Source: Salibacter halophilus
Lineage (GTDB): Bacteria > Bacteroidota > Bacteroidia > Flavobacteriales_G > Salibacteraceae
Assembly (NCBI RefSeq): GCF_008806325.1
Contig: NZ_WACR01000013.1
Location: 1-64,000, forward strand
Length of the DNA: 64,000 bases
Direction: 5' to 3'
Both the position numbers and the translations under genes were made by a program. Position 1 is the first letter of the stretch. Each line of letters begins with the position of its first letter. Shown here piece by piece: positions 3,586 through 31,648 of the stretch. A model generated the notes under the pieces. The model was not told where the DNA came from. It saw only the letters and a program-made list of their open reading frames with translations, and ran no database searches.

Positions 3586-5238
3586 ATGAAAAAATTAGCA
3601 GTAAGTGTTTTTGCGTTGGCTGTGAGCTTCGCAGGAATGTCACAAACATCGAATAATCTTGTCGATTTTGAGGATATTAACGGACATGCTCCGGTTGAAA
3701 CAAACTCAATCGACAATAATTACTTTTACAACAATTATTGTATCGAGTTCTTTCATGATTCAATCAATAGTTCTACTTTACCTATTTACTCACAAGTTGG
3801 AGCACCCAGAACGGCTTTTGTAGTTGCATATAATACTTATAGTACTTCAAAAGGGACCGTATGTAATAATATATCGACAGACGATGATGCTCCTATAAGT
3901 TCTCCTTTGGATGAAGGGTGTTACTTACTTACAGACGTTGATGCTGGTCCTACTCAAAATCCAAAGCCGCTTGTCATTGATTACGATGAAGATTGTACTG
4001 TTTGCGACAGTGCATCTGGTTTTTTACTTGATGTTGATGGAAACAGTAACTTTCAGGAAGGCTGGAGATTAGAGGCTTTTACAACAAACCCAAATATTGC
4101 TGAAGATACTATTTACATTCTTTCAGACGACTGGAGTAATTGTGGAGTTTGTCCTAATGTTCCAGGTTTTTCTTCACCAGGCTATTACAATTCTGCTGAC
4201 GATGGAACGGCAAAGTACTGGGAGTTTCAATTGAATAATCCAATCGATTATTTGAAATTTACATATATAGGTCACCCTGATCGTGGTGCCGGTATAGCTT
4301 TTGACGAATTTTATTTCTGTAGTATTGAACAGGATACTACACCTGAGCCGGAAATCTGTGAAGTGAATGCAGGCTTTGAACCGCAAATAGACATGTGTAA
4401 AGTTTCATTCACGAACTTTTCTGCACCCGGAAATTCATCAACTGAAATTGTCGGTTACAAATGGACTTTTGGTGATGGAACCTCATCAAATGAAGAAAAC
4501 CCTGTTTATTTCTATGATCAGCCGGGAGTATATCAGGTTTGTCTTGAAGTAACAGCCATTAAAGACGGAGAATGCTGTACTGATATTTACTGTACTGAGA
4601 TAGAAATCAACGAAGAGTGTCCTGAAGGTTGTGAAGGTGATATAGAATTAAACTATGAAAGGACAACGGTTTGTGATTCATGTGCTTATACTTTTAGTGC
4701 TAATATCTTTGGAAATTACTATCCGGTAATTGGATATCAATGGGACTTTGGAGACGGTACAACAAGCACAGAAGCGAATCCGACTCATGTTTACCAGGTT
4801 CCAGGGGCACAACAAGTTTGCTTGAGGGTTGTATTGGATAGCCCTGAAGAATGCTGCATTATCGAGAGATGTATTGAAATTCCGGGTTGTGAAGAAGTAA
4901 AAGCGATGATGAAAAATGAATCTACCGGATTCAATCCGTCAGACTCGGAAAGAGATTTCACAGATGATGTTAGAACAGGAGATAAGGTGAGCTTATTTCC
5001 AAATCCTGTAAACGATATGATGAATATAGAATTACTCGATAAAGTTGAGAGTTCAACTTTATACAATAAGCGTTATACAATATTTGATGTGCGCGGAGTT
5101 GAAGTACAATCAGGTACACTCGAAAGCACCTCAAAGAACAAAGCTATAGTTGATGTTTCTGAACTTCCTGAAGGAATGTATATCATGAAGATTAACGGCT
5201 TTGATGTAAACGAATCTTTCTCTTTCCAAAAGAAGTAA
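3586..5238 (+). CDS. Secreted PKD-domain protein with T9SS C-terminal sorting domain
   Basis: 550 residues. A signal peptide (MKKLAVSVFALAVSFAGMSQ) is followed by a ~230-residue N-terminal region, then two PKD domains around residues 255-345 and 350-435, each with the YxWxFGDGTxS...NPxHxY signature and paired cysteines. The tail (SLFPNPVNDMMNIEL to the end) is a type A T9SS sorting domain, so the protein should cross the outer membrane and be anchored at the surface or released. It shares its PKD/Cys-rich layout with the protein at 17488-19305; the pair flanks the secretion/pilus locus. One copy of the GGNTCTGACC word lies 37 bp upstream of the start. Confidence 0.85.
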   Translation: MKKLAVSVFALAVSFAGMSQTSNNLVDFEDINGHAPVETNSIDNNYFYNNYCIEFFHDSINSSTLPIYSQVGAPRTAFVVAYNTYSTSKGTVCNNISTDDDAPISSPLDEGCYLLTDVDAGPTQNPKPLVIDYDEDCTVCDSASGFLLDVDGNSNFQEGWRLEAFTTNPNIAEDTIYILSDDWSNCGVCPNVPGFSSPGYYNSADDGTAKYWEFQLNNPIDYLKFTYIGHPDRGAGIAFDEFYFCSIEQDTTPEPEICEVNAGFEPQIDMCKVSFTNFSAPGNSSTEIVGYKWTFGDGTSSNEENPVYFYDQPGVYQVCLEVTAIKDGECCTDIYCTEIEINEECPEGCEGDIELNYERTTVCDSCAYTFSANIFGNYYPVIGYQWDFGDGTTSTEANPTHVYQVPGAQQVCLRVVLDSPEECCIIERCIEIPGCEEVKAMMKNESTGFNPSDSERDFTDDVRTGDKVSLFPNPVNDMMNIELLDKVESSTLYNKRYTIFDVRGVEVQSGTLESTSKNKAIVDVSELPEGMYIMKINGFDVNESFSFQKK

Positions 5239-5289: not shown

Positions 5290-5349
5290 AGTTATTAAGT
5301 GTCGTGTTTTACGCAGGTAAATTGCGAAAAACCCGACAGTGTTTAGGGT

Positions 5350-5357
5350 TATATTTG
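5350..5357 (+). promoter_or_regulatory. Bacteroidota-type -7 box for the pilus/T2SS-like operon
   Basis: TATATTTG at 5350-5357 matches TAnnTTTG exactly and lies 26 bp before the proposed ATG at 5384. A TTG occurs at 5322-5324, but the 25-bp spacing is longer than the usual ~19, so only the -7 element is convincing. Confidence 0.5.
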
Positions 5358-5383
5358 GAGCTCTTCAATATAAACACCTAATC

Positions 5384-5830
5384 ATGAAATTCAACAACCC
5401 TATTCATACCGGAACTTTTAATTGTAAAACATCAAAATCTAAGTTGGCTGCGTGGACCTTGATGGAAGTGTTGCTTGTTTTAGCTATAGTAGGCATACTG
5501 GTGTTATTGGCGCTTCCAAATTTCACTTCTATTATCTCTAAAGCCAAAGGAAAAGAAGCTGAGCTACAATTGAATGCCCTGCATATGATGCAAAAAACTC
5601 ATTTCTACGAAAAGTCAAAGTATGGCAAGACGCTTGAATCTGTAGGGTTTCAACAGGAAAAACTTACAACTGAAGGGGGGAAAGCCAATTACAAAATTGA
5701 AATTGTGGAGGCTTCAAACACAGGTTACACGGCAAGGGCAACTGCTGTTGTCGATTTTGATGGTGACGGGCAGTACAACGTTTGGGAAATTGATGAGGAT
5801 AAGAACTTAGAAGAAGTAACTAAAGATTGA
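5384..5830 (+). CDS. Type II secretion/type IV pilus major pseudopilin (GspG/PilA-like)
   Basis: The start at ATG 5384 (MKFNNPIHTG) places a 26-residue leader before the class III signal LAAWTLMEVLLVLAIVGI. The rule Glu at +5 is present. Unusually, the expected Gly at -1 is Ala and the +1 residue is Trp instead of Phe. After the hydrophobic helix comes a short globular domain whose end has a DFDGDGQYNVWEIDED loop, which resembles the calcium-binding C-terminus of T2SS major pseudopilins more than a pilin disulfide loop. It is the first gene of the forward operon; the next gene's TTG start overlaps its stop. Processing is expected by the A24 peptidase encoded next. Confidence 0.8.
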   Translation: MKFNNPIHTGTFNCKTSKSKLAAWTLMEVLLVLAIVGILVLLALPNFTSIISKAKGKEAELQLNALHMMQKTHFYEKSKYGKTLESVGFQQEKLTTEGGKANYKIEIVEASNTGYTARATAVVDFDGDGQYNVWEIDEDKNLEEVTKD

Positions 5831-6327
5831 ATACCATTCTCTACATAGTATTGGGGATTGCACTCTTCATGATTCTTTACCAGGACTTGAAAGACCGTGC
5901 AGTTGAAGTACTTTGGTTGTTACTACCGGGGATAACAGGAGTGGTGTATTTGATAAGTGATTCTGCCAATAACATTGAAACCACACTTTATAATCTCGCA
6001 TTGATTACAGTACTTTATGCAGTTGTCTATCTCTATTTTCTTTTAAAAAGCAAGATAAAGCAAACCAGATTTCAGTCATTTATAGGAGCGGGAGATGTTG
6101 TTTTTCATCTTTCGCTTTGTACCGTCATGTCTCCGGTTAGCCTAGTTACTCTTATAGTATTTGGAAATATAGCCGGTCTCTTGCTTTTGTTATTAAAACA
6201 GGCAAAACTGACACGAAACAGTATTCCGCTTGCAGGTATTCACTCCGGGACTTTGTTTGTGTGGTTGTTATTTGCTGTATTCTTATCTCCTAATTCAAAT
6301 CCTCTTTTAATACCACTTGCCCAATGA
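5827..6327 (+). CDS. A24-family prepilin peptidase, peptidase domain only
   Basis: 166 residues, polytopic. The two aspartates of the type 4 prepilin peptidase family are visible: QDLKDR after the first helix (about residue 20) and the GxGD motif in FIGAGDVVF (about residue 92). The usual N-terminal cytoplasmic methyltransferase region is absent, as in archaeal preflagellin peptidase-type enzymes and some bacterial ones. The start is a TTG overlapping the pseudopilin stop codon; no ATG is available nearby, so translation is probably coupled. It should cleave the pseudopilins of this locus on the cytoplasmic face of the inner membrane. Confidence 0.8.
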   Translation: MNTILYIVLGIALFMILYQDLKDRAVEVLWLLLPGITGVVYLISDSANNIETTLYNLALITVLYAVVYLYFLLKSKIKQTRFQSFIGAGDVVFHLSLCTVMSPVSLVTLIVFGNIAGLLLLLLKQAKLTRNSIPLAGIHSGTLFVWLLFAVFLSPNSNPLLIPLAQ

Positions 6328-7742
6328 TTGAAAGTGAATTTGAAATAAAGACAAGCTTATTGCAATTGATCTCATCAGATCAGGCTCATCAGTATGAAAT
6401 AGTCCCAAATTCAAGTGAGGGAGAAGTCTTGTCTTTGCTCACCTTTGAAAACAGCAAGGCTATTCAGAATAAAGATGAACTAGAACTTGTTTTAGGAAAG
6501 TCGATCGATTTTGAGATCATCGATAAAGAAACATTCAATCATCTTCTTCATTCCAATTACAGGAAGCGCAGGGATCAAGCGAAAGTTCTCAAAGGAAACA
6601 GCGCTGATTTTTTGGATGAATTGTTATCCCTTTCTACAGAGTTAGACAGTTCAGATATTCATATAGAGCCTTACGACAAAAGATGCCGGGTGAGGTACCG
6701 TATAGACGGTCACCTCGTGGAAAAATTCACGATCAGTAAAGTGAATTACCCTCCCTTGCTCAACAAATTGAAGATCAGATCCAATCTCGACATTTCTGAG
6801 AAAAGATTACCGCAGGACGGTCGGTTGAGATGGAAGAACCACGGCAAAGAGTTTGAATTCAGAGTATCTGTTTTGCCAACGCTCCACGGAGAAAAAGTGG
6901 TTTTACGTCTCCTTCAGAATGATGCCGATCACGTAGAGCTATTGAGGTTGGGAATGAACGATGATCAGTATAGAACATACAGCGAAATACTGAAAAGACC
7001 TAACGGAATCATCTTAATATCAGGTCCAACCGGTTCGGGGAAAACAACTACACTTTACGCCACGCTGAAAGAGCTCAACAAGATAGATCGCAACATCTGC
7101 ACAGTTGAAGATCCAATTGAATACACACTGGAAGGAATCAACCAGGTACAGGTCAAGGCCGATATCGGGTTGACATTCGCCAAAGCATTGAGGTCATTTT
7201 TGCGGCAGGACCCCGATGTGATAATGCTCGGTGAGATCCGTGATGGCGAAACAGCCCAAATGGCGATCAGGGCAGCGCTGACAGGTCACCTGGTATTGTC
7301 TACCATTCACACAAACTCTTCTATCGATACAATCAACAGGCTTATCGATATGGGGGTACCTACATTTTTATTGTCCTCAACGCTCAACCTCAGCGCAGCT
7401 CAAAGATTGCTGCGTAAGCTCTGTCCGCACTGCAAGCAAAAACAGGATGATTTGAGCCAGGTCAAACCACCTGAGGGTTATTCAGTTAAAAACGATCACG
7501 AAATATATAAACCGGTAGGGTGTCAGGAATGTCATTACACCGGCTACAGCGGTCGACTGGCCATTTATGAATTAGTTGCCATCAGCAGTGCTATATCGAC
7601 CGAAATCCGCAAGGGATCTGACCCTGATAAAATCAGGGAATCTGCTGACCATTTTAAATCACTTTCTGAACAAGCCTGGTATCACTACACACATGGGACA
7701 ACTTCTCTCGAAGAAGTATATCCACTGCTAATACAAGATTAG
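6324..7742 (+). CDS. GspE/PilB-type assembly ATPase
   Basis: 472 residues. A short N1-like domain is followed by the secretion ATPase core. Walker A GPTGSGKT is at about residue 233, the Asp/His box region (TVEDPIEY) follows, and the Walker B stretch is DPDVIMLGEIRDGET at about 295. A four-cysteine zinc knuckle (CPHCKQ near 367 and CQECHYTG near 400) is typical of GspE/PilB and absent from PilT retraction ATPases. The ATG overlaps the stop of the peptidase gene (ATGA). It powers pseudopilin polymerisation at the inner membrane. No PilT-like retraction ATPase is present in the window, which favours a T2SS-like or non-twitching machine. Confidence 0.9.
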   Translation: MIESEFEIKTSLLQLISSDQAHQYEIVPNSSEGEVLSLLTFENSKAIQNKDELELVLGKSIDFEIIDKETFNHLLHSNYRKRRDQAKVLKGNSADFLDELLSLSTELDSSDIHIEPYDKRCRVRYRIDGHLVEKFTISKVNYPPLLNKLKIRSNLDISEKRLPQDGRLRWKNHGKEFEFRVSVLPTLHGEKVVLRLLQNDADHVELLRLGMNDDQYRTYSEILKRPNGIILISGPTGSGKTTTLYATLKELNKIDRNICTVEDPIEYTLEGINQVQVKADIGLTFAKALRSFLRQDPDVIMLGEIRDGETAQMAIRAALTGHLVLSTIHTNSSIDTINRLIDMGVPTFLLSSTLNLSAAQRLLRKLCPHCKQKQDDLSQVKPPEGYSVKNDHEIYKPVGCQECHYTGYSGRLAIYELVAISSAISTEIRKGSDPDKIRESADHFKSLSEQAWYHYTHGTTSLEEVYPLLIQD

Positions 7743-7745
7743 TTT

Positions 7746-9653
7746 ATGCGAACAAACAACATCATATTAATGACAGTCTTCGGTTTCCTGATGAGCATTT
7801 TGGCTCTTCAGGCTAATGGTCAGAACCGGATTGACACCCTGCGTAACACGCTGGATTCACTTTCTGCAGAGTTTCCCGGATTGGAAGAAAAAGTAGAGTT
7901 CAGCGTGAGTGGAGCTACCATTCACGAGTTTTTGAGAGGGATAGCTGAAAACCACGATCTCAATATTTCAGTTGATCAAAATCTCGATATAAGAGTATCG
8001 AATAACTTCAATAACGCAGTCGTGAAAGACGTCCTTATTTTTCTCAGTGAAAAATATCGTCTCGATGCAGATGTTTATGGTTCTATATTAGCGTTCAGGC
8101 AATTGCCGGAAAAAGAAAAAAAGCCGGTTATCAGGGAGCCTGATGTGAACTTCAACAACCTCAATTCCTTTCTCAGTCTGGATCTCAAGAATGATACACT
8201 GGCTAAAGTGATAAGAAAAATCACAGATCAATCAGGTCTTAACGTACTCGCTGATCCCGCAGTAAAAGACAGGAGAGTCAATGCTTTCATCAAGAACAGA
8301 CCATTTGAAAATGCCATTATTATGATGGCTGAATCAAACGACTTGAAAGTTGAAAAAAAGGCAGATAACTACTTTTTCATCACAGAAAAAGGCCAGGAAG
8401 AGAACGAAAGGACTGCCCAACAAAACACTGATGAAAGAGGAGGCAGAGAAGAGATAGAACTGGTAAAAGGTCTTGAGATTGAGCTGGAAGACGACAGGCT
8501 TACAGTTGTAGCTAATGAAGTTGAGTTGAAAACAATACTCGACAAGGTTTCACAAAAATGTGAAGCCAGGTATTTTCTCTACACTGAACCTAAAGGCAAA
8601 ATCTCAACTTACATTGATAATGTTACATACGAAGATTTTGTCGAGTATTTATTGCACGGCACAGAATACACATTTAAGTTCACTGAAGGAGTCTATCTCA
8701 TCGGTAAGCGGGATCATGAGATTCTGAGAACAACAGAATTGGTGAGGTTACAAAACCGCACAATAGAGTCTATCTTAGATTTTGTTCCCCAGGAGCTAAA
8801 AAAGGGAGTAGACATAAAAGAATTTACTGAGCTAAACGGGTTGATCCTTAGTGGGTCAAGACCCAATATCAGGGAGCTTAAAACCTTTTTAGCTTCTGTC
8901 GATCAGGTTGTGCCGGTTGTTAAGATTGAAGTGATGATTGTTGATGTTACCCGTAATTCAACATTACAGGGAGGTGTTGATCTCAGGCTTGGAGGTGATG
9001 TTGTTCAACAAACATCAGGAAAACTGAGTCCCGGTATTGACATGGAACTATCCAGCACAACAATCAATCAGTTAATCAACAGCTTTAATGGATTCGGGTT
9101 TGTGAACCTGGGAAAAGTTACGCCTAATTTTTATGCAAGTATCCAGGCTCTGGAAGCAAACGGAGTACTGAAAATGCGTTCCACACCAATGCTAGCGACA
9201 CTAAACGGACATGAAGCCGATCTCAAAATCGGGAATACCGAATACTATCTTGAAGTACAAAATGACTTAGTGGGAACTCAAAATCCGGTACAGCAGCAAT
9301 CGCAAACATATAAAGCCGTAAATGCTGATCTATCGCTCAACATAAAACCGATTGTGTCAAGTGATGATAATGTTACGCTTGAAATTGAGGTTCAGCAATC
9401 AGATTTTACAGCACGGATTTCAGAAACAGCTCCACCAGGTAAAGTGACACGGAATTTTAAATCCTACATCAGGGTGAGAAACGGAGAAATGATTATGCTT
9501 GGCGGATTGGAAGAAAAATCGGTGGAACGTTCAGGAAGCGGGCTTCCATTCTTATCAAAAGTTCCGGTTTTGAAGTGGATCTTTGGCAAGCAGTCAAAGA
9601 ACAATAATAAAACGAGGTTGAATATTTTCATCAGACCTCGAGTAATCTATTAG
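7746..9653 (+). CDS. Secretin (GspD/PilQ-like outer-membrane channel)
   Basis: 635 residues with an N-terminal signal peptide (cleavage near ANGQNRID). There are several periplasmic STN/N-type modules (about residues 50-110, 140-200 and 250-320). The C-terminal secretin domain (about 390-635) contains the conserved VEVMIVDV-like strand, STPMLATLNGHEA and a terminal VPVLKWIFG...RLNIFIRPRVI. It should form the multimeric channel for the machine. I see no C-terminal S-domain for a pilotin. The gene follows the ATPase gene by 3 bp and is followed 7 bp later by the GspL/PilM-like gene. Copies of the GGNTCTGACC word lie near its start (7818-7827) and in the end of the ATPase gene (7613-7622). Confidence 0.9.
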   Translation: MRTNNIILMTVFGFLMSILALQANGQNRIDTLRNTLDSLSAEFPGLEEKVEFSVSGATIHEFLRGIAENHDLNISVDQNLDIRVSNNFNNAVVKDVLIFLSEKYRLDADVYGSILAFRQLPEKEKKPVIREPDVNFNNLNSFLSLDLKNDTLAKVIRKITDQSGLNVLADPAVKDRRVNAFIKNRPFENAIIMMAESNDLKVEKKADNYFFITEKGQEENERTAQQNTDERGGREEIELVKGLEIELEDDRLTVVANEVELKTILDKVSQKCEARYFLYTEPKGKISTYIDNVTYEDFVEYLLHGTEYTFKFTEGVYLIGKRDHEILRTTELVRLQNRTIESILDFVPQELKKGVDIKEFTELNGLILSGSRPNIRELKTFLASVDQVVPVVKIEVMIVDVTRNSTLQGGVDLRLGGDVVQQTSGKLSPGIDMELSSTTINQLINSFNGFGFVNLGKVTPNFYASIQALEANGVLKMRSTPMLATLNGHEADLKIGNTEYYLEVQNDLVGTQNPVQQQSQTYKAVNADLSLNIKPIVSSDDNVTLEIEVQQSDFTARISETAPPGKVTRNFKSYIRVRNGEMIMLGGLEEKSVERSGSGLPFLSKVPVLKWIFGKQSKNNNKTRLNIFIRPRVIY

Positions 9654-9660
9654 TGTTGGT

Positions 9661-10839
9661 ATGGCGCTATCTGATTTAAAAGAAAAGTTTCTCAAGCGAA
9701 AGGAGCTCGGTTTAAGTATTGAGCTGGGAAATGAAGAGCGTACGTTCCATCTCTTTAAATCATCAGTAAAAGAGGGCAACCTCTCAGTTGATGAAACAAT
9801 AAGTGTGCCTTCAATTACTGAAGTAACAGATCATTTTAAGGGAAGGAGTATTGTACTCCATTTGAGTGGTAAGGGAATTTTAGCCAAAACCGGTTACGAG
9901 GAAAGAGTGGAGGATGTTTTCCCCACGATCTCTGTCGATGAGTTTTTTATCCAGCATTTCAGCTTTGGTTCAAAGCATGTTTGGAGCATAGCTAGAAAAG
10001 AAACAGTGAACGCTGTGGTGGAGGAGTTGCTGAATGAAAACATACTGGTAAAATCAGTTTATTTGGGCCCTTCAGCAGTTCAGTTGGTGAATAGTGATCT
10101 CGTAAAATCTGATGATAAAATCGTTGCCAATCCGTATACCATAAATCCGGTTAGAGAAGAAGTTACAGTTGGTACAGAGGGAACGATAAAAAGCTATCAA
10201 ATTGATCAGTTTGAAGTTGAAAGCATTTTCCTGAACGTTTTCGGAGCCGTTTTGATGAACATTCTGTCACCCCAAAAAGCAATCCCGGTAAAGGGATCTG
10301 AGAATGAGGAATTGCTAAATGATTTGATTTACAGTCAGCGGTTTAAGACACTGGCACCTGTAATGATTTTTACTTTTTTCTTTATCTTGTTGGTGAACTT
10401 TGGCGTGCAACAACATTTACAGGGCGAGAGAGAAACACTCAATGCTGAGGTGCAGTTATTAGAGAAAGATGCTGAAAGACTCGAGGAGATAGAGAAAGCA
10501 ATTACGACTCAAAAATCACTGTTGGGAAACACGGGACAGTCTGTTAGGTGGTCTTATTACTTCGATCTACTGGCACAGGATATTCCCGGGGAAATCCAAC
10601 TGGAAAGCTTAAACGCTTACCCGATGGACAATGATGAAATGCAACTGTCAGATCCGATGAAGGCTGACGTTGACAATATCGTGGTTGAAGGGTTGGTAGC
10701 TGATGTAACTGATTTTGAAAAATGGTACAAGAAACTGGATCAACACGACTGGATTAAAGGGAAATCAATCCTGAATTATGGAAAAAAATCAGGAGTTGAA
10801 AGATCAGTGTTTAAGATCAAACTGAATGTTTCGGTATGA
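9661..10839 (+). CDS. GspL/PilM-PilN-like inner-membrane assembly protein
   Basis: 392 residues. The N-terminal ~230 residues are cytoplasmic and look like a degenerate actin-like PilM/GspL cytoplasmic domain. One transmembrane helix follows (LAPVMIFTFFFILLVNFGV, about residues 236-255), then a coiled-coil stretch (ERETLNAEVQLLEKDAERLEE) and a periplasmic domain of PilN/GspL type. This single-protein arrangement resembles GspL or a PilM-PilN fusion. The call rests on topology and operon position between secretin and GspM/PilO-like genes, not on a strong sequence motif. It would link the ATPase to the periplasmic components. Confidence 0.65.
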   Translation: MALSDLKEKFLKRKELGLSIELGNEERTFHLFKSSVKEGNLSVDETISVPSITEVTDHFKGRSIVLHLSGKGILAKTGYEERVEDVFPTISVDEFFIQHFSFGSKHVWSIARKETVNAVVEELLNENILVKSVYLGPSAVQLVNSDLVKSDDKIVANPYTINPVREEVTVGTEGTIKSYQIDQFEVESIFLNVFGAVLMNILSPQKAIPVKGSENEELLNDLIYSQRFKTLAPVMIFTFFFILLVNFGVQQHLQGERETLNAEVQLLEKDAERLEEIEKAITTQKSLLGNTGQSVRWSYYFDLLAQDIPGEIQLESLNAYPMDNDEMQLSDPMKADVDNIVVEGLVADVTDFEKWYKKLDQHDWIKGKSILNYGKKSGVERSVFKIKLNVSV

Positions 10840-11342
10840 ATTTGAATTCGCAGCAGAAATATTATTTACTGATAGCGGGAAGCATACTACTGCTGATCCT
10901 GATTTATCCGTTGGCGATTTCTAAAACTGTTGCAGTTAGCTCGTCAATCGATAAACTGGAAAAGCGGAAAACGGAGTTGGCCAGCCTCAAGTCAAAAGAA
11001 AATGAGTTGCTCCGGATGCAATCCCGCCTCAAGGATACGGCTACCATCGGTTCTGACCGTAACTCTATATTGACTTATATTTCCATGAAAGGAGAGAAGT
11101 TGCCGGGATTGGAAGTTGCTCAAATTCCTGAAGTTCACTTTTACTCGAGTGATGACCTGAATATTGAAACGAATGTTTTTGTGCTGGAAGGACCGTTTAA
11201 GAGTCATTTGGGAATTTTAGACAGCCTGTATTTCAACGGAAAAATTTCACCTAAAAGTGTGCACCTGTACAAACAAAGAAACTTTAAAAAGCGAAAAAAT
11301 GAGCTTTACTGTAAACTGTATTTTCAAAGAGTTAAGGATTGA
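10836..11342 (+). CDS. GspM/PilO-like inner-membrane protein
   Basis: 168 residues. One N-terminal helix (YYLLIAGSILLLILIYPLAI) is followed by a coiled coil (SSIDKLEKRKTELASLKSKENELLRMQSRL) and a small alpha/beta periplasmic domain, the layout of PilO and GspM. The ATG overlaps the end of the GspL/PilM-like gene by 4 bp (ATGA). The lipoprotein gene that follows starts about 44 bp before its stop. Function inferred from architecture and position. Confidence 0.65.
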   Translation: MNLNSQQKYYLLIAGSILLLILIYPLAISKTVAVSSSIDKLEKRKTELASLKSKENELLRMQSRLKDTATIGSDRNSILTYISMKGEKLPGLEVAQIPEVHFYSSDDLNIETNVFVLEGPFKSHLGILDSLYFNGKISPKSVHLYKQRNFKKRKNELYCKLYFQRVKD

Positions 11343-12261
11343 TTATTTGTCTGTTCTGCTCGTGATAGGCCTGCTTAGCAGCTGTGATGATATTATTGAA
11401 AAGGATATCAGTGATGAGCGTGTGTCCATTATTGCACCTGCAGACAGTTTGCGAACTGAAGAGAGCAGCCAGTTTTTCATCTGGAACGAAATTGACGGTG
11501 CAAGTGAGTATCAGTTGCAAATTGTTTCTCCCTCATTCAAACAGGTGAGAAGGTTTGAGCTGGATACAACAATAAATGATTATCGCTACGAGTATTCTTT
11601 TACACCAGGCGTTTACCAGTGGCGTGTAAGGGCAAAGAACGGAAGTTACGAAACTCCTTACGCTACAAGGACAATTATCATTGACAGCTCACTCAACCTG
11701 AGCAATACGACTGTGTTTTTGACCAGTCCGCCTGATAATTCGGTGATGAGAGAAGGTCCGGGGGAATTTCGTTGGAGTGAAGTTTACAATGCAAATTACT
11801 ACGTGTTCAGGCTTGTAGAGGGAAATAACTTTGACGGAGGCGTCAGGGTCGTGCAGGATGAAGAAGTCAATACTCTTCAGTTCAATTATTCTGATTCATT
11901 ACCTGAAGGTGATTACACATGGGGGGTGAGTGCTGAAAATCAAATTTCAAAATCTGCCTTTTCAACGAGAACCTTTACCATTGATCGCACTCCGCCTACC
12001 GTACCGCAGTTGACAAGTCCAAATGACGGAGATATTGTGAACCCCAATGTCACTTTAACGTGGAATTCTAACTCAGAATACGATTCATTGATTATTGGAA
12101 GTGATGGCCAGCTTAACCAGGTGCTTCAAAAAGTTTATTCTGATTCGAACTCTTACTCTGACTCACTGAGTAATGGTACTTATTACTGGACAGTGAAATC
12201 CTTTGATAATGCAGGAAATGTTTCGCAGGCTAATGAGATAAGAGAATTTATGGTTCAATGA
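11299..12261 (+). CDS. Lipoprotein with Fn3-like repeats, secretion-locus accessory
   Basis: The start at ATG 11299 gives MSFTVNCIFKELRIDY, then a hydrophobic stretch and lipobox LLSSC, so the mature protein is lipid-anchored. Three Fn3-like or BACON-like beta domains follow, each with an FxWxxxxxAxxYxLQ-type strand: FFIWNEIDGASEYQLQ, GEFRWSEVYNANYYVF and LTWNSNSEYDSLIIG. An N-terminal extension to 11257 is possible but would bury the signal. The gene overlaps the PilO/GspM-like gene by 44 bp and the following gene by 4 bp, so it belongs to the operon. It may act as a pilotin-like or surface accessory protein, which is speculative. Confidence 0.7.
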   Translation: MSFTVNCIFKELRIDYLSVLLVIGLLSSCDDIIEKDISDERVSIIAPADSLRTEESSQFFIWNEIDGASEYQLQIVSPSFKQVRRFELDTTINDYRYEYSFTPGVYQWRVRAKNGSYETPYATRTIIIDSSLNLSNTTVFLTSPPDNSVMREGPGEFRWSEVYNANYYVFRLVEGNNFDGGVRVVQDEEVNTLQFNYSDSLPEGDYTWGVSAENQISKSAFSTRTFTIDRTPPTVPQLTSPNDGDIVNPNVTLTWNSNSEYDSLIIGSDGQLNQVLQKVYSDSNSYSDSLSNGTYYWTVKSFDNAGNVSQANEIREFMVQ

Positions 12262-12791
12262 GTAAGCCCAAAAAGAAGAAATATTTGACGTTTATACTCA
12301 TTCCTGTAGTTGCAGGAGTTTGGGGATATATTGCCTATATCATTTACGATATGCTAAACCCTGATGAACCTGTTGTTTCAACTCAAACCAACTACAGCGA
12401 ACACAAAACCGAGCCCGATTCAATCGATGAAGCTCAATTGAAGCTGAATTACGATGATCCGTTTTTAAAAGGGAGCCCTTACACCAGGAGGAAATACACG
12501 GTTCAAAAAAAGAAAGAACCTCAAAAAACACAGCAGGTCATTCAGCAGAGCAACCAAAATATACCAAAGTCTAAATTCAATTGGCCTGATATTGTCTTTG
12601 TGGGAAAAATGGAAAACAGATCAGATAACAGGACACAGGTGTTGTTGACCATAGGTGAAAAGCAGAATATTTACTCAATAGGTGATAGTCTCACAGCTGG
12701 TATTTACATTGATGAACTCCATCAGGATACTTTGATTTTAAAGCGAAGTTCCGGTGGAGAGTCAAAAACGCTGGTCATCAACTCCCGATAG
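12258..12791 (+). CDS. GspC/PilP-like inner-membrane protein
   Basis: 177 residues with one N-terminal transmembrane helix (YLTFILIPVVAGVWGYIAYII), a Pro/Gln/Lys-rich linker and a C-terminal beta domain (WPDIVFVGKMENRSDN...VLLTIGEKQNIYSIGDSLT). That domain has the HR-domain flavour of GspC and PilP, which dock onto the secretin's N0 domain. It is the last gene of the forward operon; its 3' end overlaps the platform-protein gene on the other strand by 14 bp. The assignment comes from topology, size and context. Confidence 0.65.
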   Translation: MSKPKKKKYLTFILIPVVAGVWGYIAYIIYDMLNPDEPVVSTQTNYSEHKTEPDSIDEAQLKLNYDDPFLKGSPYTRRKYTVQKKKEPQKTQQVIQQSNQNIPKSKFNWPDIVFVGKMENRSDNRTQVLLTIGEKQNIYSIGDSLTAGIYIDELHQDTLILKRSSGGESKTLVINSR

Positions 12792-13899
12792 AGAGCGAGA
12801 ACAATGGCATGTACATCGCGACAAGTATCGTCCCGATTACGATAGCTACAAATGTAATGAGGATAGGTTCCAGGATCTTTCCCACTATTGAGGCCTGGGA
12901 TTCGAGATCTTCACGCACCTGGCTCGAGATGCGTTCAAAGGCCTGGTGAAGTTGATTCGTCTCCTCAGAGATCTCGATATACATCAGTTCCGATTCACTG
13001 AACATCTCCGTGTTTTCCAACGATTTTTTCAGAGAACTACCATGAGCGATTTTTTCTGAAGCTTCACCCACTTTTGAAGAAATGTATTTGGTGTTCATCG
13101 AGTTTTGAGCGAGGTTGAGTGCCTCCAGTAAGTTGACATTCGCTTTTAACAGGAAAAACAGAACACTGCTGAATCGGCTTTTTACTGATTTGATGTAGAA
13201 TGATCCAAAGAAAGGCACTCTGATCAGGATACTTTCAACCCTGATCCTGAAGGAATCCTTTTTCCATAGCTGCATGAAAACGAGGATCAGGATGAGTACA
13301 GCCATCAACCAGTACAAATATTGATTCTGAACAGTGTCACTGATCGCAATGATATGTTGTGTGATTTGTGGCAGTTCAGATCCCAGTCTTTCGTACAGTC
13401 CGCCAAACATGGGAACCACAACATTTACCATGAAGAATAAAATACCCGTTGAAACAACGATCAGTAACAAAGGGTAAGACATGGAACCGATGATCGTCTT
13501 CTGTATTTTGGCATTGAACTCATAGAAATACAGGAGATCGCCAAAAACAGCTTCCAGTTGTCCGCTCTCCTCACCGGCCTTTATGCTGGATGACTCAAAT
13601 TTTGAAAAGTGCCCTGTTTGTTCAACAGCCTCTGCAAGTGAATTTCCTTTGAGTACACTCTGTTTGATTTCTGACAACACCTTAGCGTATTTATCCTTCT
13701 TTTTGGTGTTGACCGTGATCATTTCAAGGAGCGTATTCATGTCGACTCCCGCCTTGAGCAGTGAGTGAAACTCTTTGTAAAAACGAATCTTATATTTTTT
13801 GCCAAAACTGTCCTTTTTCAGGGCAGCGAGTATTCCGCTTCCTGTTTTTGATGAGGACTTAGCCTGAACTTTAGTATTTGCTTTGAGTTCTATCGGCAT
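12778..13899 (-). CDS. GspF/PilC-type platform protein
   Basis: 373 residues with two T2SS_F domains (about residues 40-160 and 240-360) and three membrane helices. Conserved features are visible: FYKEFHSLLKAGVDMNTLLE and GNSLAEAVEQTG in the first half, FSSVLFFLLKANVNLLEALNLA and GSSLKKSLENTEMFS in the second. It is the inner-membrane platform on which the ATPase drives pseudopilin assembly. It is the last gene of the reverse operon and converges on the GspC/PilP-like gene with overlapping 3' ends. Its start overlaps the upstream minor pseudopilin gene by 29 bp. Confidence 0.9.
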   Translation of the reverse strand: MPIELKANTKVQAKSSSKTGSGILAALKKDSFGKKYKIRFYKEFHSLLKAGVDMNTLLEMITVNTKKKDKYAKVLSEIKQSVLKGNSLAEAVEQTGHFSKFESSSIKAGEESGQLEAVFGDLLYFYEFNAKIQKTIIGSMSYPLLLIVVSTGILFFMVNVVVPMFGGLYERLGSELPQITQHIIAISDTVQNQYLYWLMAVLILILVFMQLWKKDSFRIRVESILIRVPFFGSFYIKSVKSRFSSVLFFLLKANVNLLEALNLAQNSMNTKYISSKVGEASEKIAHGSSLKKSLENTEMFSESELMYIEISEETNQLHQAFERISSQVREDLESQASIVGKILEPILITFVAIVIGTILVAMYMPLFSLSIGS

Positions 13900-14347
13900 A
13901 ATTGATCAATTGAGTAGCTGAGTACTGTTTCTTTAAAATAAATGGGTATTTTGATTGCGGGAACTGAACCTCAATAGCGTTTACCAGTTTCGTGTTTTTT
14001 TGATACCCGGTGTTTTGAACTGAAAAAGTGAGCGTGTCACTACCGGGTGAATTGCTCGTGGTTCTGACAGTGAACCCGGGTTTCAGCTCATAGTTGATTA
14101 CTTCACCTGTTTTTTTCATCACCAGTGATGAGGTTGACTTGTTGATCTCTTTTGAAGATTCAATATCTGATTGCAGGACATGTAAACCCTGAAGTTGGTC
14201 GTATTTGGTGATCGATTGATGTTCAATATTCAGGAGGAAGTTATTACTCTGTTGATACACAAAGGCTCCCAGTAATGCCACGATGGATATAACAGCCATC
14301 ACGATCATGAGTTCCAGAATCGTAAATGCTTTGAGTTTACTCTTCAT
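13871..14347 (-). CDS. Minor pseudopilin
   Basis: 158 residues with a class III signal: KSKLKAFTILELMIVMAVISIVALLG, where FTILE carries the +5 Glu and the residue before Phe is Ala rather than Gly, as in the major pseudopilin of this locus. The globular part has no recognised domain. Its ATG overlaps the end of the next pseudopilin gene by 11 bp. By analogy with GspH/I/J it would cap or prime the pseudopilus. Confidence 0.75.
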   Translation of the reverse strand: MKSKLKAFTILELMIVMAVISIVALLGAFVYQQSNNFLLNIEHQSITKYDQLQGLHVLQSDIESSKEINKSTSSLVMKKTGEVINYELKPGFTVRTTSNSPGSDTLTFSVQNTGYQKNTKLVNAIEVQFPQSKYPFILKKQYSATQLINYADRTQSKY

Positions 14348-14678
14348 GATCTTCCAGTTGTTTCAGGTTGCAGACTTGCAGATCATGATCAGTTGTGGAA
14401 GCACATATTTTCATCAGACCTGGGTTCAGTTTTTCGAAAGTTAAATGGATTTTTTTGTTTTTGTAGGATACTTCAACTTTATCAGACGAGAGGTTTTCCA
14501 ACTCTCGGGTTGATTTGTTGCAGTATGAAACGGAAATAAAGCTCAACTCTGATCGGGTTAACCTGCTGTTCAAAGAGGTGAGTTTTCCAAATGTGGAAAA
14601 AGCAAGGAGGGCCACCAGTACGATTAAACTGGTAGCAATCACAACTTCGAGTATGCTGACAGCTCTTAGTTTAACCAT
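14337..14678 (-). CDS. Minor pseudopilin, short
   Basis: 113 residues starting MVKLRAVSILEVVIATSLIVLVALLAF. The SILEV pattern supplies the +5 Glu, again after Ala, which suggests that this system's prepilin peptidase accepts Ala at -1. A small C-terminal domain has two cysteine pairs (SYCNKSTRE and KICASTTDHDLQVCN). It overlaps the genes on both sides (11 and 13 bp), so the pseudopilins are translated as one block. GspI-like by size and position; the exact subunit cannot be fixed. Confidence 0.75.
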   Translation of the reverse strand: MVKLRAVSILEVVIATSLIVLVALLAFSTFGKLTSLNSRLTRSELSFISVSYCNKSTRELENLSSDKVEVSYKNKKIHLTFEKLNPGLMKICASTTDHDLQVCNLKQLEDHEE

Positions 14679-15880
14679 TTCATTACCTTTCCTTTTTGAC
14701 TTCCTTTCATCGTGACGGAGAGGAAGTCTTTTTGATGCATGTCGTGGTTGATTATTCCGTCCATCAAGGTATTCGTGTAAACACCCGTGGGAGTTTTTAA
14801 GTAAAAGCGCTGGGCAAAAACACTGCCCTGTACTTCTCCCTGCAGTTGGATGTCACCGTTTGTGATGATATTTCCTTTAACTGTGCTTTTGTCTCCTATT
14901 TTGATAAACGATTTTTTTTCAGTCAGGAAGATTTCACCGTTATATTCAGAACCCTCATCAATCTCAGCGTATCCGTTTTCACCCGTAACGACAATGTGTG
15001 AAGGATAGTTCAACTGAGCCATTGAGGAGATGAAGAGCGAATCGGTTGCCCAAAACTGTCCGGAGCCCTTAAAGCCGGCTTCGAGTCTGATCTCGGGTGC
15101 TGCCACGATTCCGCTATTTATGGTAATGCTGGACGGTATCGACAGCGGAGTGTTTGATTTCAGAATAATATTTCCCTCAAAAACGGAGGGGCGGGAGAGA
15201 GGCTGATCGATTTGAATAATCAGTGGATTTGACCTGAATGAGTTCCTTATTGTATCAGAATTGAATTCAGATAAAAGTCTGGTATTGCCGAATCCCGTGA
15301 GTCTCTTTGCTGTGTTTCGAATGTTTGTGATCGTTTCTTTGATCTCTTTAGGAAAGTCGCGATCACTCTGTTTCGGTTTCGACTTGAGAAAATCCTGAAC
15401 AGTTGATGACTTCCCCTCAATGTAAACCTCTTTTACGCTTTTACTAGGGAGAAAAGCTTCACCGAATATTTCAGCCTTGCCAGTGTATTTGAGTTCATCA
15501 AAATTACCGGCCAGGTAAATTGCCGGCCAGTGTTTGTCTGCATAACCGATAGCCCATCCTTTGTAAAAGGTATCCTGTTCAGTTTTGATGTAGCCGGTAT
15601 AGACATTGAGTAGTCCGAAGTTTTTAACAGATAATAAAGACGATGCAATAGATTGGGGTTTCCAGGAAGAGTTGTCAGATTCACTTATCGGAGACTTTGA
15701 GAATTCAACCATATTTTGAAATTCGTGGTTGATAAGAATGTTTTGTTCAATTTTAGAATTGACCGTTTGCTGTTTATCGAAAAAAAGGAGAATGGCAGAA
15801 AGCAGAGCAAATACAAGGGTTGCTATCAACAAGCTCTGTAAAATAGCTGACGACCTGAGTTTTTTGTTGTAAAACTTCAT
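14666..15880 (-). CDS. Large pseudopilin-like protein in the GspK/PilX position with bactofilin-like beta region
   Basis: 404 residues. The N-terminus (KKLRSSAILQSLLIATLVFALLSAILLF) resembles a pseudopilin helix but lacks the +5 Glu, as GspK does. After an unremarkable middle part, residues ~240-385 form a repetitive beta region alternating INSGIVAAP, GYAEIDEGSEYNGEI and DKSTVKGNIITNGDIQLQGEVQGSV. This reads like a polymer-forming bactofilin-type beta helix and would be unusual on a pilus tip. It overlaps the short pseudopilin gene and the lipoprotein gene. The role is inferred from position. Confidence 0.6.
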   Translation of the reverse strand: MKFYNKKLRSSAILQSLLIATLVFALLSAILLFFDKQQTVNSKIEQNILINHEFQNMVEFSKSPISESDNSSWKPQSIASSLLSVKNFGLLNVYTGYIKTEQDTFYKGWAIGYADKHWPAIYLAGNFDELKYTGKAEIFGEAFLPSKSVKEVYIEGKSSTVQDFLKSKPKQSDRDFPKEIKETITNIRNTAKRLTGFGNTRLLSEFNSDTIRNSFRSNPLIIQIDQPLSRPSVFEGNIILKSNTPLSIPSSITINSGIVAAPEIRLEAGFKGSGQFWATDSLFISSMAQLNYPSHIVVTGENGYAEIDEGSEYNGEIFLTEKKSFIKIGDKSTVKGNIITNGDIQLQGEVQGSVFAQRFYLKTPTGVYTNTLMDGIINHDMHQKDFLSVTMKGSQKGKVMKWLN

Positions 15881-16593
15881 TCACATGCATCGTTTTTCTC
15901 TTTCTTCTCATCCTTTTTGAAAAAGAGTTTTACTCGTTTAAAGAATGTGGTATCGTTTTCCTGCTTCTTGAGTTCACGCTTCTGTTTCCTCAGTTCTCTT
16001 TTTTGTTCACGTTCTTTTGTTTTTTCGGGATCTGCTTTAAACAGAGATTTAAAAAAACGTTCTTTTTCTGGTTGAATGATTCCGTTTGAGTAATAGATTT
16101 CTGCTATAAGTGTATCATTATGATACTTCTTTGACCAACCATGCTTTAACCCGTTTTTAAATGGAGTGCTTATCACGGTATCTGACTTGTAAATGATAGT
16201 AGACCCGTTTTTCAATCCCTTTTTAAAATTTTCGATCTTGTGCAGTTCACCATTTTGATACCAAACTTTCCATTCCCCCACTTTCAGCCCTTTTTCGAAC
16301 TCTCCTTTTTCCCTGAGGTTACCCTCGAAGTAATGAGAAGTGTATTCACCGTCAAGGAGTTTACCTGAGTAATCTCCTTCAGATTTGTGTATTTCGCGCG
16401 CCTTCATCCAGTAATAGTCCTTGCAGTTGATGGTACCTGTACTTTTATCAGTATAGGAAGTGTGAATAGTGCCGGAATCGGTACGTATCCGCAAAAGGTT
16501 ATAATTGATGTCTTCTTTGACGTTGTAAGAGCTGCATCCAGTCAAAAGACAAATCATTAGGATACATATAAATGATGTGATTCTGAGAAACAT
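15877..16593 (-). CDS. Lipoprotein with MORN/YwqK-type repeats
   Basis: 238 residues. A signal sequence ends in lipobox LLTGC. Repeats of the YwqK/MORN type follow (EKGEFEKGLKVGEWKVWYQNG, FKKGLKNGSTIIY, FKNGLKHGWSKKY), then a very basic and glutamate-rich C-terminal tail (about residues 185-238). Databases often label such proteins 'toxin-antitoxin system YwqK family antitoxin', but nothing here suggests a toxin-antitoxin role. It overlaps the GspK-position gene by 4 bp and begins 13 bp after the regulator's stop, so it is probably part of the reverse operon. Confidence 0.7.
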   Translation of the reverse strand: MFLRITSFICILMICLLTGCSSYNVKEDINYNLLRIRTDSGTIHTSYTDKSTGTINCKDYYWMKAREIHKSEGDYSGKLLDGEYTSHYFEGNLREKGEFEKGLKVGEWKVWYQNGELHKIENFKKGLKNGSTIIYKSDTVISTPFKNGLKHGWSKKYHNDTLIAEIYYSNGIIQPEKERFFKSLFKADPEKTKEREQKRELRKQKRELKKQENDTTFFKRVKLFFKKDEKKEKNDACE

Positions 16594-16606
16594 ATATAAA
16601 AATAAG

Positions 16607-17254
16607 TTATACAGTTAGCACTCCTTCCTCAAGCATCTTACGCATAAGCCCGAGAATATTGTCTGATCTTGTTTTCTTCAATAGACGAGATCTATATCTT
16701 TCAATTGACCTCACAGAAAGAGATAGTCTATCAGCAATTTCATCATTCGTTTCACCTTTCCATAATAGCGAAATGATTTCTTTTTCAATGCTCTTTAGTT
16801 CAGCAACTAGCACACCTTCAAGGTTTTTTTGCTTTGTCGCTATTATTCTGTCAATAAACCCTTTTGGATAGTAGGTTCTCATTGATTTATGACCGATACA
16901 ATGATCAATATCAATTTTCAGTTCACTAATAGATGATGAAGAGTTAATAAATCTTTGAACACCATGTTTAAAAGCAAGATAACATTCTAGAGTATCATTT
17001 GAGTTATAACAAGCGATTGTCTTTTTAATTGCTTTAGCATCATTTAAAAGAATGAAAAAGTTATTTACTTGTTGTTTAGTGAAACCACTTAAGAATATAA
17101 TGATATCTGAGAAGCCAGATAAATCAGGAAGGTGATCAGTTTCTATCCAGGTTTCAAATTCGACAGATGATTGACAAAGGTTTGTTATACCAAAAGTCTG
17201 AAATTCGCCTGTGCTAATACACAGAACTTTAGGGTCAGTAGCTTGAATTGTCAT
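16607..17254 (-). CDS. LuxR-type transcriptional regulator with degenerate receiver domain
   Basis: 215 residues. The C-terminal ~60 residues are a LuxR/GerE helix-turn-helix (EKEIISLLWKGETNDEIADRLSLSVRSIERYRSRLLKKT). The N-terminal half folds plausibly as a receiver, but the phosphoacceptor position reads DIIIFLSGF, without the usual Asp after the strand, so it is probably not phosphorylated. It is the first gene of the reverse operon that leads into the lipoprotein and pseudopilin genes, and is the obvious candidate to control the locus. The 233-bp AT-rich gap before the divergent PKD gene must hold its promoter. Confidence 0.75.
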   Translation of the reverse strand: MTIQATDPKVLCISTGEFQTFGITNLCQSSVEFETWIETDHLPDLSGFSDIIIFLSGFTKQQVNNFFILLNDAKAIKKTIACYNSNDTLECYLAFKHGVQRFINSSSSISELKIDIDHCIGHKSMRTYYPKGFIDRIIATKQKNLEGVLVAELKSIEKEIISLLWKGETNDEIADRLSLSVRSIERYRSRLLKKTRSDNILGLMRKMLEEGVLTV

Positions 17255-17487: not shown

Positions 17488-19305
17488 ATGAAAACACTTA
17501 AAACTTTAGGCTTATTAGTCTTAATGTCGATGCTGAGCTATGTCAGTATTGCACAATCACCCAGCTGTAGTAGTTCAGGGTGTATCGTTGATACTTTAAT
17601 ACTCAATACTGGTTATGATCACACGACTAATAGTCAGTATAGTTATGGAGATTATGATAATTACTGGAGATTAACTAATGTTCCCAGTTCTTCAGGATTG
17701 ACTTTACCGTCTCCAAGTTATGTTATTAGTCCGAACAGTGCATGGCATAATTTCCCGAATTCTCAGTGGATCTCGGCCTTTAATGATAATTCTTACAATA
17801 CAAATAACCCTGTTCCTGATGATCCTTACAGCTTTGAGAACTGTTTTTGTATCTGTCAGGACACTACGGTGTACTTTAATTTTGAAGTTGTAGCCGATGA
17901 TTATGGTTATGTTTATCTTGACAATAATCTGCTTGCAGCTGGAGATTCAGGTTATCATTTTCAGTATGGAAACAGGATTATCGTTGATACTGCCATTTCA
18001 TTAACATCAGGAACACACTGTCTGAGGCTAGATATGAGAAATATTTCTGGAGTGGCAATGGGAATTAGCCTTGAAGGTTACATGACAGGTGGAAGCCCTC
18101 TAGATCAAAATTGTTGTAATCCAAACGGTAGTATTTGCGGAGTTAAGTATCTTGATCAAAACTGTGACAGTTCCTATGCTGGTGATCCAACATTAGATGG
18201 TTTTGAAATTATCTTGTACGACAGCCTCAATAACCCTATTGATACTACAATTACGGATTCACTCGGTAATTATTGCTTCCTGGATATCCCTGCCGGTAAT
18301 TATTATGTTGGTGAGATTAACCAACCGGGTTATGTTCAGACTTACCCATCATCAGGACAACATAATATAGATGTTACAGTAGGTACTGTAACAGGAGCTG
18401 ATTTTGCAAACTGTGATACAACAACTACACCATCAGAGCCAGATCCATGTGAAGAAAAACTGGAAATCAAACCTGAAATAAAAAATTGTAAAGCAACATT
18501 TAATTTACTCAACAGTCCTAGTAATCCGTGGGTTCTACTCAGCGCAGAATGGACATTTGGTGATGGTTACAGCTCCAATGAAGTTTCACCAACTCATTAC
18601 TATGATGCTCCAGGAGCATATCAGGTTTGCGTTGAGGTTACTTATTACAATACAGAGACACAAGAATGCTGTACAGTTAAAGAATGTCTTGAAATAGAAA
18701 TAAAAGAGCCTTGTCCTGAAGAGTGTCAAATTGATGGAGAAATACTGGTAGATTTTGACGAATGTTGTGAGTATGAATTCTCACTCAATGTGAATTCAAA
18801 CACAGAGATCATCGGTTACATTTGGACATTAGGAGATGGAACAACTTTAACAGGTGAAGAAGTTGAGCACATTTATACTCAAGCTGGCGGTTATCAAGTT
18901 TGTGTTACTGTTATAGCTGAAGGCCCAGACGGAAGATGTTGCTCAAAACGCATCTGTATTGAACTCGAAGTTCCATGTGAAGGAAAACCACAGGATGACA
19001 GTAGTGGAAAGAGAAGTCTTGGAAATGATGAAACAGATGTTGATGATCAATACAACTTCAAGGTTTACCCTAATCCAACAAGTGATAATGTGAACATCGC
19101 ACTCAACTTATCAGAAAAGCAGCAAGTGCAAATAAGAATGTTCGATATCAACGGACGTGTGGTAATCGAAAAAAATGCCGGTGAGCAAGGTGCCGGTAGT
19201 CACAAGTTCCCGATGAGCACAAGTAATCTCAATACAGGAATGTATTTCTGCTATGTGACGTTATCTAATGGAGAGGTATTACACACTAAAGTTGTAATAG
19301 AGTAG
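17488..19305 (+). CDS. Secreted SdrD-B-like/PKD protein with T9SS sorting domain
   Basis: 605 residues. A signal peptide (ending SYVSIAQ) is followed by a PA14/CBM-like N-terminal region with a CFCICQDTTVYFNFEV strand, an SdrD B-like module (about 210-310: CGVKYLDQNCDSSYAGD ... NYCFLDIPAGNYYVGE), and two PKD domains (about 330-410 and 420-500) with FGDGYSSNE and LGDGTTLTGE. A T9SS type A sorting domain (FKVYPNPTSDNVNIAL to the end) closes the protein. The PKD half, with ECCTVKECLEIEI and CPEECQ, closely resembles the protein at 3586-5238. It is transcribed divergently from the LuxR-type regulator. Confidence 0.85.
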   Translation: MKTLKTLGLLVLMSMLSYVSIAQSPSCSSSGCIVDTLILNTGYDHTTNSQYSYGDYDNYWRLTNVPSSSGLTLPSPSYVISPNSAWHNFPNSQWISAFNDNSYNTNNPVPDDPYSFENCFCICQDTTVYFNFEVVADDYGYVYLDNNLLAAGDSGYHFQYGNRIIVDTAISLTSGTHCLRLDMRNISGVAMGISLEGYMTGGSPLDQNCCNPNGSICGVKYLDQNCDSSYAGDPTLDGFEIILYDSLNNPIDTTITDSLGNYCFLDIPAGNYYVGEINQPGYVQTYPSSGQHNIDVTVGTVTGADFANCDTTTTPSEPDPCEEKLEIKPEIKNCKATFNLLNSPSNPWVLLSAEWTFGDGYSSNEVSPTHYYDAPGAYQVCVEVTYYNTETQECCTVKECLEIEIKEPCPEECQIDGEILVDFDECCEYEFSLNVNSNTEIIGYIWTLGDGTTLTGEEVEHIYTQAGGYQVCVTVIAEGPDGRCCSKRICIELEVPCEGKPQDDSSGKRSLGNDETDVDDQYNFKVYPNPTSDNVNIALNLSEKQQVQIRMFDINGRVVIEKNAGEQGAGSHKFPMSTSNLNTGMYFCYVTLSNGEVLHTKVVIE

Positions 19306-31119: not shown

Positions 31120-31648
31120 CCTCATCTTTTTGTTTCTGTTATCTGCGATTTTCAGTTGCAACTCCAACTCAAAGTCATCTGAAAATAAGTTGGTAAATGC
31201 CGATAAAAAGGATTTTACAAAAGAGGAGTTGTTGGAAATCAACCGCGAACGTGAGATGGTTGAGTTCAAGCTGATTGAAAAATACATCGAGCGAAGAGGA
31301 TGGGAGATGGAAAGATCAGGATCAGGACTTTTTTATTCCGTTTATGATTCGGCATCAACTCCCGGACCCAAAGCAACAGAAAAGAGAGTGGCAACGATTG
31401 AATACGTTGTGTCATTACTCAACGGAGATACCGTTTATACCAGCGAAGAGGACGGTTTAAAAGAATTTGTCATCGGGATGGATCACGTTGAAAACGGCTT
31501 GCATGAGGGGATTACCTACATGCGGGTTGGTGATAGGGCACGTTTTATTATTCCGCCCCGTTTAGCTCACGGTTTGGCTGGTGACAGAAAGAAAATTCCA
31601 ATGCACTCATCAATTGTTTACGATGTTAAACTGGTGTCGCTTAAGTAG
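31112..31648 (+). CDS. gldI: GldI-like FKBP peptidyl-prolyl isomerase lipoprotein
   Basis: 178 residues. A signal peptide with lipobox AIFSCNS is followed by a charged helix (residues ~30-65) and one FKBP domain (about 70-178) with LLNGDTVYTSEEDG, GLHEGITYMRVGDRARFIIPPRLAHGL and SSIVYDVKLVSL. Size and layout match GldI, the gliding-associated isomerase lipoprotein of Flavobacteriia. That does not prove gliding here, since GldI homologues also occur with T9SS in non-gliders. First of three overlapping FKBP genes. Confidence 0.75.
   Translation: MRSLIFLFLLSAIFSCNSNSKSSENKLVNADKKDFTKEELLEINREREMVEFKLIEKYIERRGWEMERSGSGLFYSVYDSASTPGPKATEKRVATIEYVVSLLNGDTVYTSEEDGLKEFVIGMDHVENGLHEGITYMRVGDRARFIIPPRLAHGLAGDRKKIPMHSSIVYDVKLVSLK

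Follow-up and report, generated by a model that had tools for sequence, protein, structure and literature searches.

Described relatives of the locus

The closest described system is that of Cytophaga hutchinsonii (chu_3191-chu_3202), which Wang (2017) called a putative type II secretion system (T2SS) needed for cellulose use (PMC5553014). A homologous system was published for Cytophaga and four other Bacteroidetes, with homologues in Flavobacterium johnsoniae, Pedobacter heparinus, and Odoribacter splanchnicus (PMC5553014). Disruption of the C. hutchinsonii D, F, or G homologue led to less growth on cellulose, less cellulose adhesion, and loss of two outer-membrane proteins; motility was kept and the extracellular protein profile was nearly unchanged (PMC5553014). 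The two missing proteins are porins, which the authors doubt to be direct cargo, and by electron microscopy the wild type and the secretin mutant were alike in morphology (PMC5553014). Denise et al. (2019) found that the Bacteroidetes system always clusters with type IVa pili (T4aP) and suggested that T4aP may have given rise to it as a secretion machine, independent of the T2SS (PMC6668835).

Gene content and layout

The window analyzed here, 64,000 nucleotides of Salibacter halophilus DNA, contains a complete type IV filament (TFF) machine at positions 5339-16593, based on open reading frames and Pfam and NCBIfam matches. Its TFF parts are a major pilin, a prepilin peptidase, an ATPase, a secretin, L-, M-, and C-like proteins, a platform protein, two minor pilins, and a K-position pilin. 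The Ig lipoprotein and MORN protein genes, which the earlier sequence-only reading left out of its list of machine parts, also belong to the conserved set. The genes, with window coordinates, are:

5384..5830, plus strand: major pilin/pseudopilin (G position) with a C-terminal DFDGDG acidic loop; there is an in-frame GTG start at 5339
5827..6327, plus strand: prepilin peptidase, A24 type, with a GxGD motif and without the N-terminal methylase domain
6324..7742, plus strand: assembly ATPase, GspE/PilB type, 472 aa
7746..9653, plus strand: outer-membrane secretin with three tandem STN-like domains, one N-domain, and the secretin core
9661..10839, plus strand: L-like protein with a PilM/GspL-type cytoplasmic domain, one transmembrane helix (about 231-249), and a PilN/GspL-type periplasmic domain
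10836..11342, plus strand: M-like protein, PilO/GspM type, with an N-terminal transmembrane helix
about 11299..12261 (start codon uncertain), plus strand: fibronectin-III/Ig-like lipoprotein (Ig) with three domains and an acidic stretch after the lipid-attached Cys
12258..12791, plus strand: C-like protein with an N-terminal transmembrane helix, an invariant DPF motif, and a GspC HR-type domain, no PDZ
12778..13899, minus strand: inner-membrane platform protein (GspF/PilC)
13871..14347, minus strand: minor pilin with an N-methylation motif
14337..14678, minus strand: minor pilin-like protein with a weak ComGE-type match
14666..15880, minus strand: K-position pilin without Glu5, with a ComZ-like predicted beta-solenoid
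15877..16593, minus strand: exported MORN-repeat protein with a Lys-rich tail
16607..17254, minus strand: LuxR/NarL-type regulator, a clade-specific neighbor and not a core part

The genes form two packed operons, ordered G-O-E-D-L-M-Ig-C on the plus strand and F-J-I-K-MORN on the minus strand (from the junction outward). Within both, adjacent genes overlap or lie at most 7 bp apart, and the operons converge with C and F tail to tail, overlapping by 14 bp. An earlier sequence-only reading had described a complete machine in two converging operons with almost every gene overlapping the next; open reading frames, Pfam and NCBIfam matches, and profile and fold searches bear out both the layout and every gene that it named, at the same coordinates.

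The published gene order in C. hutchinsonii, C-(chu_3192)-M-L-D-E-O-G and F-two minor pilins-chu_3202, is the same as here (PMC5553014), but the operons converge in S. halophilus, unlike those of C. hutchinsonii. Two of the published genes were unassigned by the authors: by position in that order, chu_3192 would correspond to the fibronectin-III lipoprotein and chu_3202 to K or the MORN gene. On this match of published gene order, the S. halophilus locus is another member of the Cytophaga-type system already described.

Motor, secretin, and inner-membrane proteins

The ATPase matches T2SSE (E=2e-128), the platform protein matches T2SSF (E=4e-41), and the secretin matches its family (E=6e-37) in Pfam/NCBIfam. 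The A24 peptidase match is weak (E=5e-4); the GxGD motif and the first Asp occur in most homologues. No NCBIfam T2SS model reaches its cut-off on the machine's proteins, with scores against the curated cut-offs of 491/630 bits for GspE, 145/351 for GspD, and 238/424 for GspF. In the secretin, the three STN-like domains are alike among themselves and lie upstream of one N-domain (hhalign probabilities 73-96%).

Neither L, M, nor the K-position protein has a family match in Pfam/NCBIfam; they were recovered by profile and fold searches, and about 33 other loci have them at the same position. L is predicted (pLDDT 87) to have the GspL architecture. In the predicted structure, PilM and GspL are about equally good matches for the cytoplasmic domain, and PilN and EpsL/XcpY match the periplasmic one; PilM-N fusion proteins align with L from end to end (E=2.5e-17). 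The best PDB match of M is Myxococcus PilO (E=5e-4), and hhalign also relates it to GspM. C matches T2SSC (E=5e-5, Pfam/NCBIfam), and its HR domain matches PDB entry 2lnv (E=0.0016) and, by hhalign, GspC (92.7%). The single GspL-like gene and the C-like protein of the earlier reading are therefore upheld, L being one chain and C carrying both a transmembrane helix and a GspC HR domain. In some Desulfobacteraceae T2SS loci (L179, L197), PilM-like proteins of about 500 aa replace the classical GspL.

Pilins and the K protein

Pilin-type N-termini were found among the locus pilins (Pfam/NCBIfam). The best match of the major pilin is a type IVa PilA, from Myxococcus. Its DFDGDG-type acidic loop, pointed out earlier as a DxDGDG tail, is kept in 35 of the 35 major pilins checked and may bind calcium.

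K is predicted (pLDDT 89, pTM 0.86) to fold as a long N-terminal pilin helix, three strands in a short antiparallel sheet, a beta-solenoid, and a last strand. We rejected the GspK-like fold expected for this position, as the beta-solenoid is predicted instead of the GspK helical domain; the hhalign alignment with GspK covers the N-terminal helix only. The best PDB match is Thermus ComZ, followed by ice-binding proteins. Like K, Thermus thermophilus ComZ carries a beta-solenoid on a pilin stem, inserted ahead of the last strand, and both match the ice-binding protein FfIBP, but the likeness is structural only and K's side of it comes from a predicted model (E=3e-4, TM 0.24, which is low). The ComZ paper reports that ComZ itself resembles the same structure pair, with the insertion before the last strand, and that it is a DNA-binding tip pilin (PMC6561018).

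The ComZ match brings up a DNA-uptake (competence) pilus with K as a ComZ-like tip DNA receptor, and the minor pilins have weak matches to ComG models and ComEC is present in the S. halophilus genome. Against this, ComEC occurs in 17 of 17 good-quality genomes of the family searched, whether or not they carry the machine, so the two are not associated, and there is no PilT for pulling DNA in. We regard a competence role as highly improbable.

Lipoprotein and MORN protein

The Ig gene adjoins C. It encodes a lipoprotein whose Cys aligns in at least 90% of rows and is followed by a conserved acidic stretch; the protein has three fibronectin-III-like domains. Among 396 Bacteroidia genomes, strong matches to Ig occur in 63 of 68 genomes carrying the machine and in 2 non-carriers; for the K gene the corresponding counts are 64 of 68 and 3. 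Because both co-occur with the secretin and are found almost nowhere else, they appear to be dedicated machine parts. Of the 25 loci with K, 23 also have the MORN gene. Its product is predicted to be exported and has a Lys-rich end, with a lipobox in S. halophilus and a plain signal peptide in most relatives.

Comparison with the T2SS and type IVa pili

The machine resembles the classical T2SS (GspC-O) in its ATPase, platform, secretin, pseudopilin, and M, and in two T2SS traits, the one-chain GspL and the membrane-anchored GspC with an HR domain; neither system has a retraction ATPase. It differs in an ATPase outside the T2SS clade, a C without PDZ, a K with a beta-solenoid and not a helical domain, the extra lipoprotein and MORN protein, a secretin with three STN-like domains, and scores below all curated cut-offs. 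With the type IVa pilus (PilB/C/D/M/N/O/P/Q) it shares an ATPase that branches on the T4aP side, a major pilin nearest PilA, and an M profile that matches PilO. It differs from that pilus in lacking PilT and in the type IVa traits of separate PilM and PilN and a lipoprotein PilP: PilM and PilN are fused in one chain, C has an N-terminal transmembrane helix rather than a lipobox, and no AMIN domain was found in the secretin.

Distribution in Bacteroidota

The secretin was found in 70 of 396 Bacteroidia genomes, or 68 without two weak, unrelated matches. The 68 carriers (about 17% of sampled Bacteroidia) span 23 family groups in a patchy pattern. In its own family (Salibacteraceae), 9 of 18 genomes have the machine, and it is absent from the two further genomes available for its genus (83% and 94% complete). 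The full locus had been called notable for a member of the Bacteroidota; it is real, but these counts and the earlier publication in Cytophaga and four other Bacteroidetes (PMC5553014) make it less exceptional. A part list was built with profiles iterated across 37 Bacteroidota loci. Most Bacteroidia loci yielded G, O, E, D, L, M, Ig, C, F, K, and MORN, and the full list is conserved in about 33 of them.

A whole-genome search of S. halophilus (99.97% complete) found one ATPase above the Pfam cut-off, one secretin, and no PilT. PilT was also found in 0 of 32 sampled Bacteroidia carrier genomes, which extends the earlier observation that the locus lacks it and speaks against an ordinary T4aP with pilT elsewhere. 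Among these 32, a second ATPase over the cut-off is present in G607 alone, a large genome of family f60 that has the system in two copies (C19 and C32). What is new here is the distribution, the absence of PilT in 32 of 32 carriers, and the three conserved parts Ig, MORN, and the beta-solenoid K, which T2SS models lack.

G, D, L, M, and C are also present in Rhodothermia-type relatives. Ig and MORN were unrecognized in 3 of 4 such loci, and the fourth gave one large fibronectin-like match only. In 3 of the 4 genomes there is the machine's ATPase plus a separate PilB and PilT. One genome (G143; L085, L086) has the machine alongside a separate PilC-PilB-PilT-PilQ pilus, and the secretin of that pilus, the PilQ near PilC-PilB-PilT, groups in the tree with E. 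coli and Aeromonas PilQ. Since a separate PilB/PilT pilus stands beside the machine in relatives, the machine is not simply the type IV pilus of the phylum.

The system or its ATPase is found on plasmids in Pontibacter, Persicobacter, and Flavobacterium (L098, from Pontibacter sp. G13, and hits H61-H64), and these locations suggest that the system may be mobile.

Ancestry

The trees used 80 GspE/PilB loci from about 20 phyla as references, typed by their neighbors, and further references from E. coli, Aeromonas, and plasmid T2SS/T4aP/MSH systems. The careful ATPase tree omits the HofB and MSH rows, whose branches were too long. The Bacteroidia systems form a single clade with the ATPase (100/100*), secretin (100/99*), and platform (100/97*). 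In the careful ATPase tree they join the Rhodothermia-type relatives in a clade (99/96*) outside the T2SS, and the T2SS stands alone on one side of a branch with weak support. Joining the ATPase to the T2SS was rejected (AU p=0.0101; with the main T2SS clade, p=0.0084). In the platform tree the Bacteroidota are also apart from the T2SS, but joining them is not rejected (AU p=0.34). The secretin tree has a T2SS clade (97/93*) and a distinct Bacteroidota clade (100/99*), with a sister relation at 64/52. We dropped the first AU tests (Bt+T2SS without the Rhodothermia-type relatives), which forced an unnatural split; repeated with those relatives, the platform test changed from p=0.028 (rejection) to p=0.34. 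The ATPase supports Denise et al., and the platform and secretin are neutral. On this phylogenetic evidence, the motor of the machine descends from the type IVa pilus.

A true but strongly diverged T2SS, of common ancestry with the GspE/D/F systems and secreting folded proteins, would fit the higher scores of the platform protein with GspF than PilC (238 vs 178 bits) and of the secretin with GspD than PilQ (145 vs 124 bits), the GspC/GspL architecture, a secretin tree that permits sister groups, and a platform tree that does not reject joining. We consider this origin improbable, given the rejection by the ATPase and the separate position of the T2SS in its tree, the lack of any NCBIfam T2SS model at cut-off, a K unlike GspK past the N-terminal helix, and published trees that put the system with T4aP (PMC6668835). 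The "divergent T2SS" of the sequence-only reading is right about the T2SS-like L/C architecture and acidic loop; its placement in the T2SS lineage is not supported by the ATPase, the PilA-like major pilin, or the ComZ-like K, and the platform and secretin trees take no side.

We tentatively propose, at a little under even confidence, that in Bacteroidota type IVa pili gave rise to a type II-like secretion or display machine, separately from the origin of the T2SS. It would have converged on a fused L, an anchored C, a calcium-type pseudopilin, and PilT loss, and added parts unknown elsewhere: the beta-solenoid tip pilin, the dedicated fibronectin-III lipoprotein, and the MORN protein. Should the independent origin hold, type IV pili would have given rise to secretion on at least two occasions, and a comparison of these would reveal which changes convert a pilus into a secretion machine.

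Predicted function

The L/C architecture, the absence of PilT, and the Cytophaga phenotypes make secretion or display the best reading. We judge, slightly above even confidence, that this TFF machine of the Cytophaga kind, with its T4aP-derived motor, spans the envelope and serves for secretion or surface display. Two points speak against secretion: extracellular proteins hardly changed in the Cytophaga mutants, whose missing porins are doubted as direct cargo (PMC5553014), and K resembles ComZ, a surface-exposed DNA receptor/adhesin pilin that suits an extended filament.

These same points make a non-retracting adhesive type IV pilus a serious rival. Here G would form a surface filament, K at the tip would display a beta-solenoid adhesin, and the adhesion loss in Cytophaga would be a direct effect. 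The ATPase on the T4aP side, the Myxococcus PilA match of the pilin, the resemblance of K to a tip pilin, and mutants that lose cellulose adhesion with normal extracellular proteins (PMC5553014) are all consistent with such a pilus. We nonetheless think it unlikely, because a retraction ATPase occurs in 0 of 32 genomes, the locus has a GspL-type fusion and a GspC-type protein with transmembrane helix and HR domain, the pilin has a Ca-type loop as in pseudopilins, specific outer-membrane proteins are also lost in the mutants, and electron microscopy showed no morphology difference between the wild type and the Cytophaga secretin mutant (PMC5553014).

For secretion or display, we predict that the ATPase, bound to both the platform protein and L's cytoplasmic domain, drives stepwise assembly of processed G subunits. 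These would form a short periplasmic pseudopilus, tipped by the two minor pilins and K with its beta-solenoid, and L-M-C would connect it to the secretin's periplasmic domains. As the filament grows, it may push folded cargo, periplasmic or lipid-anchored, out through the secretin and onto the cell surface, or keep the way open for it; the filament would shorten by disassembling, with no PilT motor involved. The fibronectin-III lipoprotein probably sits in the outer membrane or at the surface, where it would receive cargo, tether it, or hold the secretin in place, and the MORN protein probably acts as a scaffold in the periplasm. The parts, their order, conservation, and co-occurrence, the absence of PilT, and the ATPase ancestry are read directly from sequence; which way transport runs, what the cargo is, and what the lipoprotein, MORN protein, and K do are what we infer. 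As concrete targets for knockouts, the lipoprotein, the MORN protein, and the tip pilin, all conserved, make the function testable.

Genome context

The carriers already possess the T9SS (126 sorting-tail matches in the S. halophilus genome). PKD-domain proteins with T9SS sorting tails are encoded on both flanks (window 3586-5238 and 17488-19305); we rejected these genes as cargo, as they are not kept beside the machine in other loci. The LuxR-type regulator was rejected as a core part, being seen in only 4 other loci. An integrase-core (rve) transposase-like gene (window 2095-3474, minus strand) adjoins the left flank. Farther along the window, at 31112-33327, three consecutive overlapping genes for FKBP-type peptidyl-prolyl isomerases lie downstream of a DHH phosphoesterase gene.
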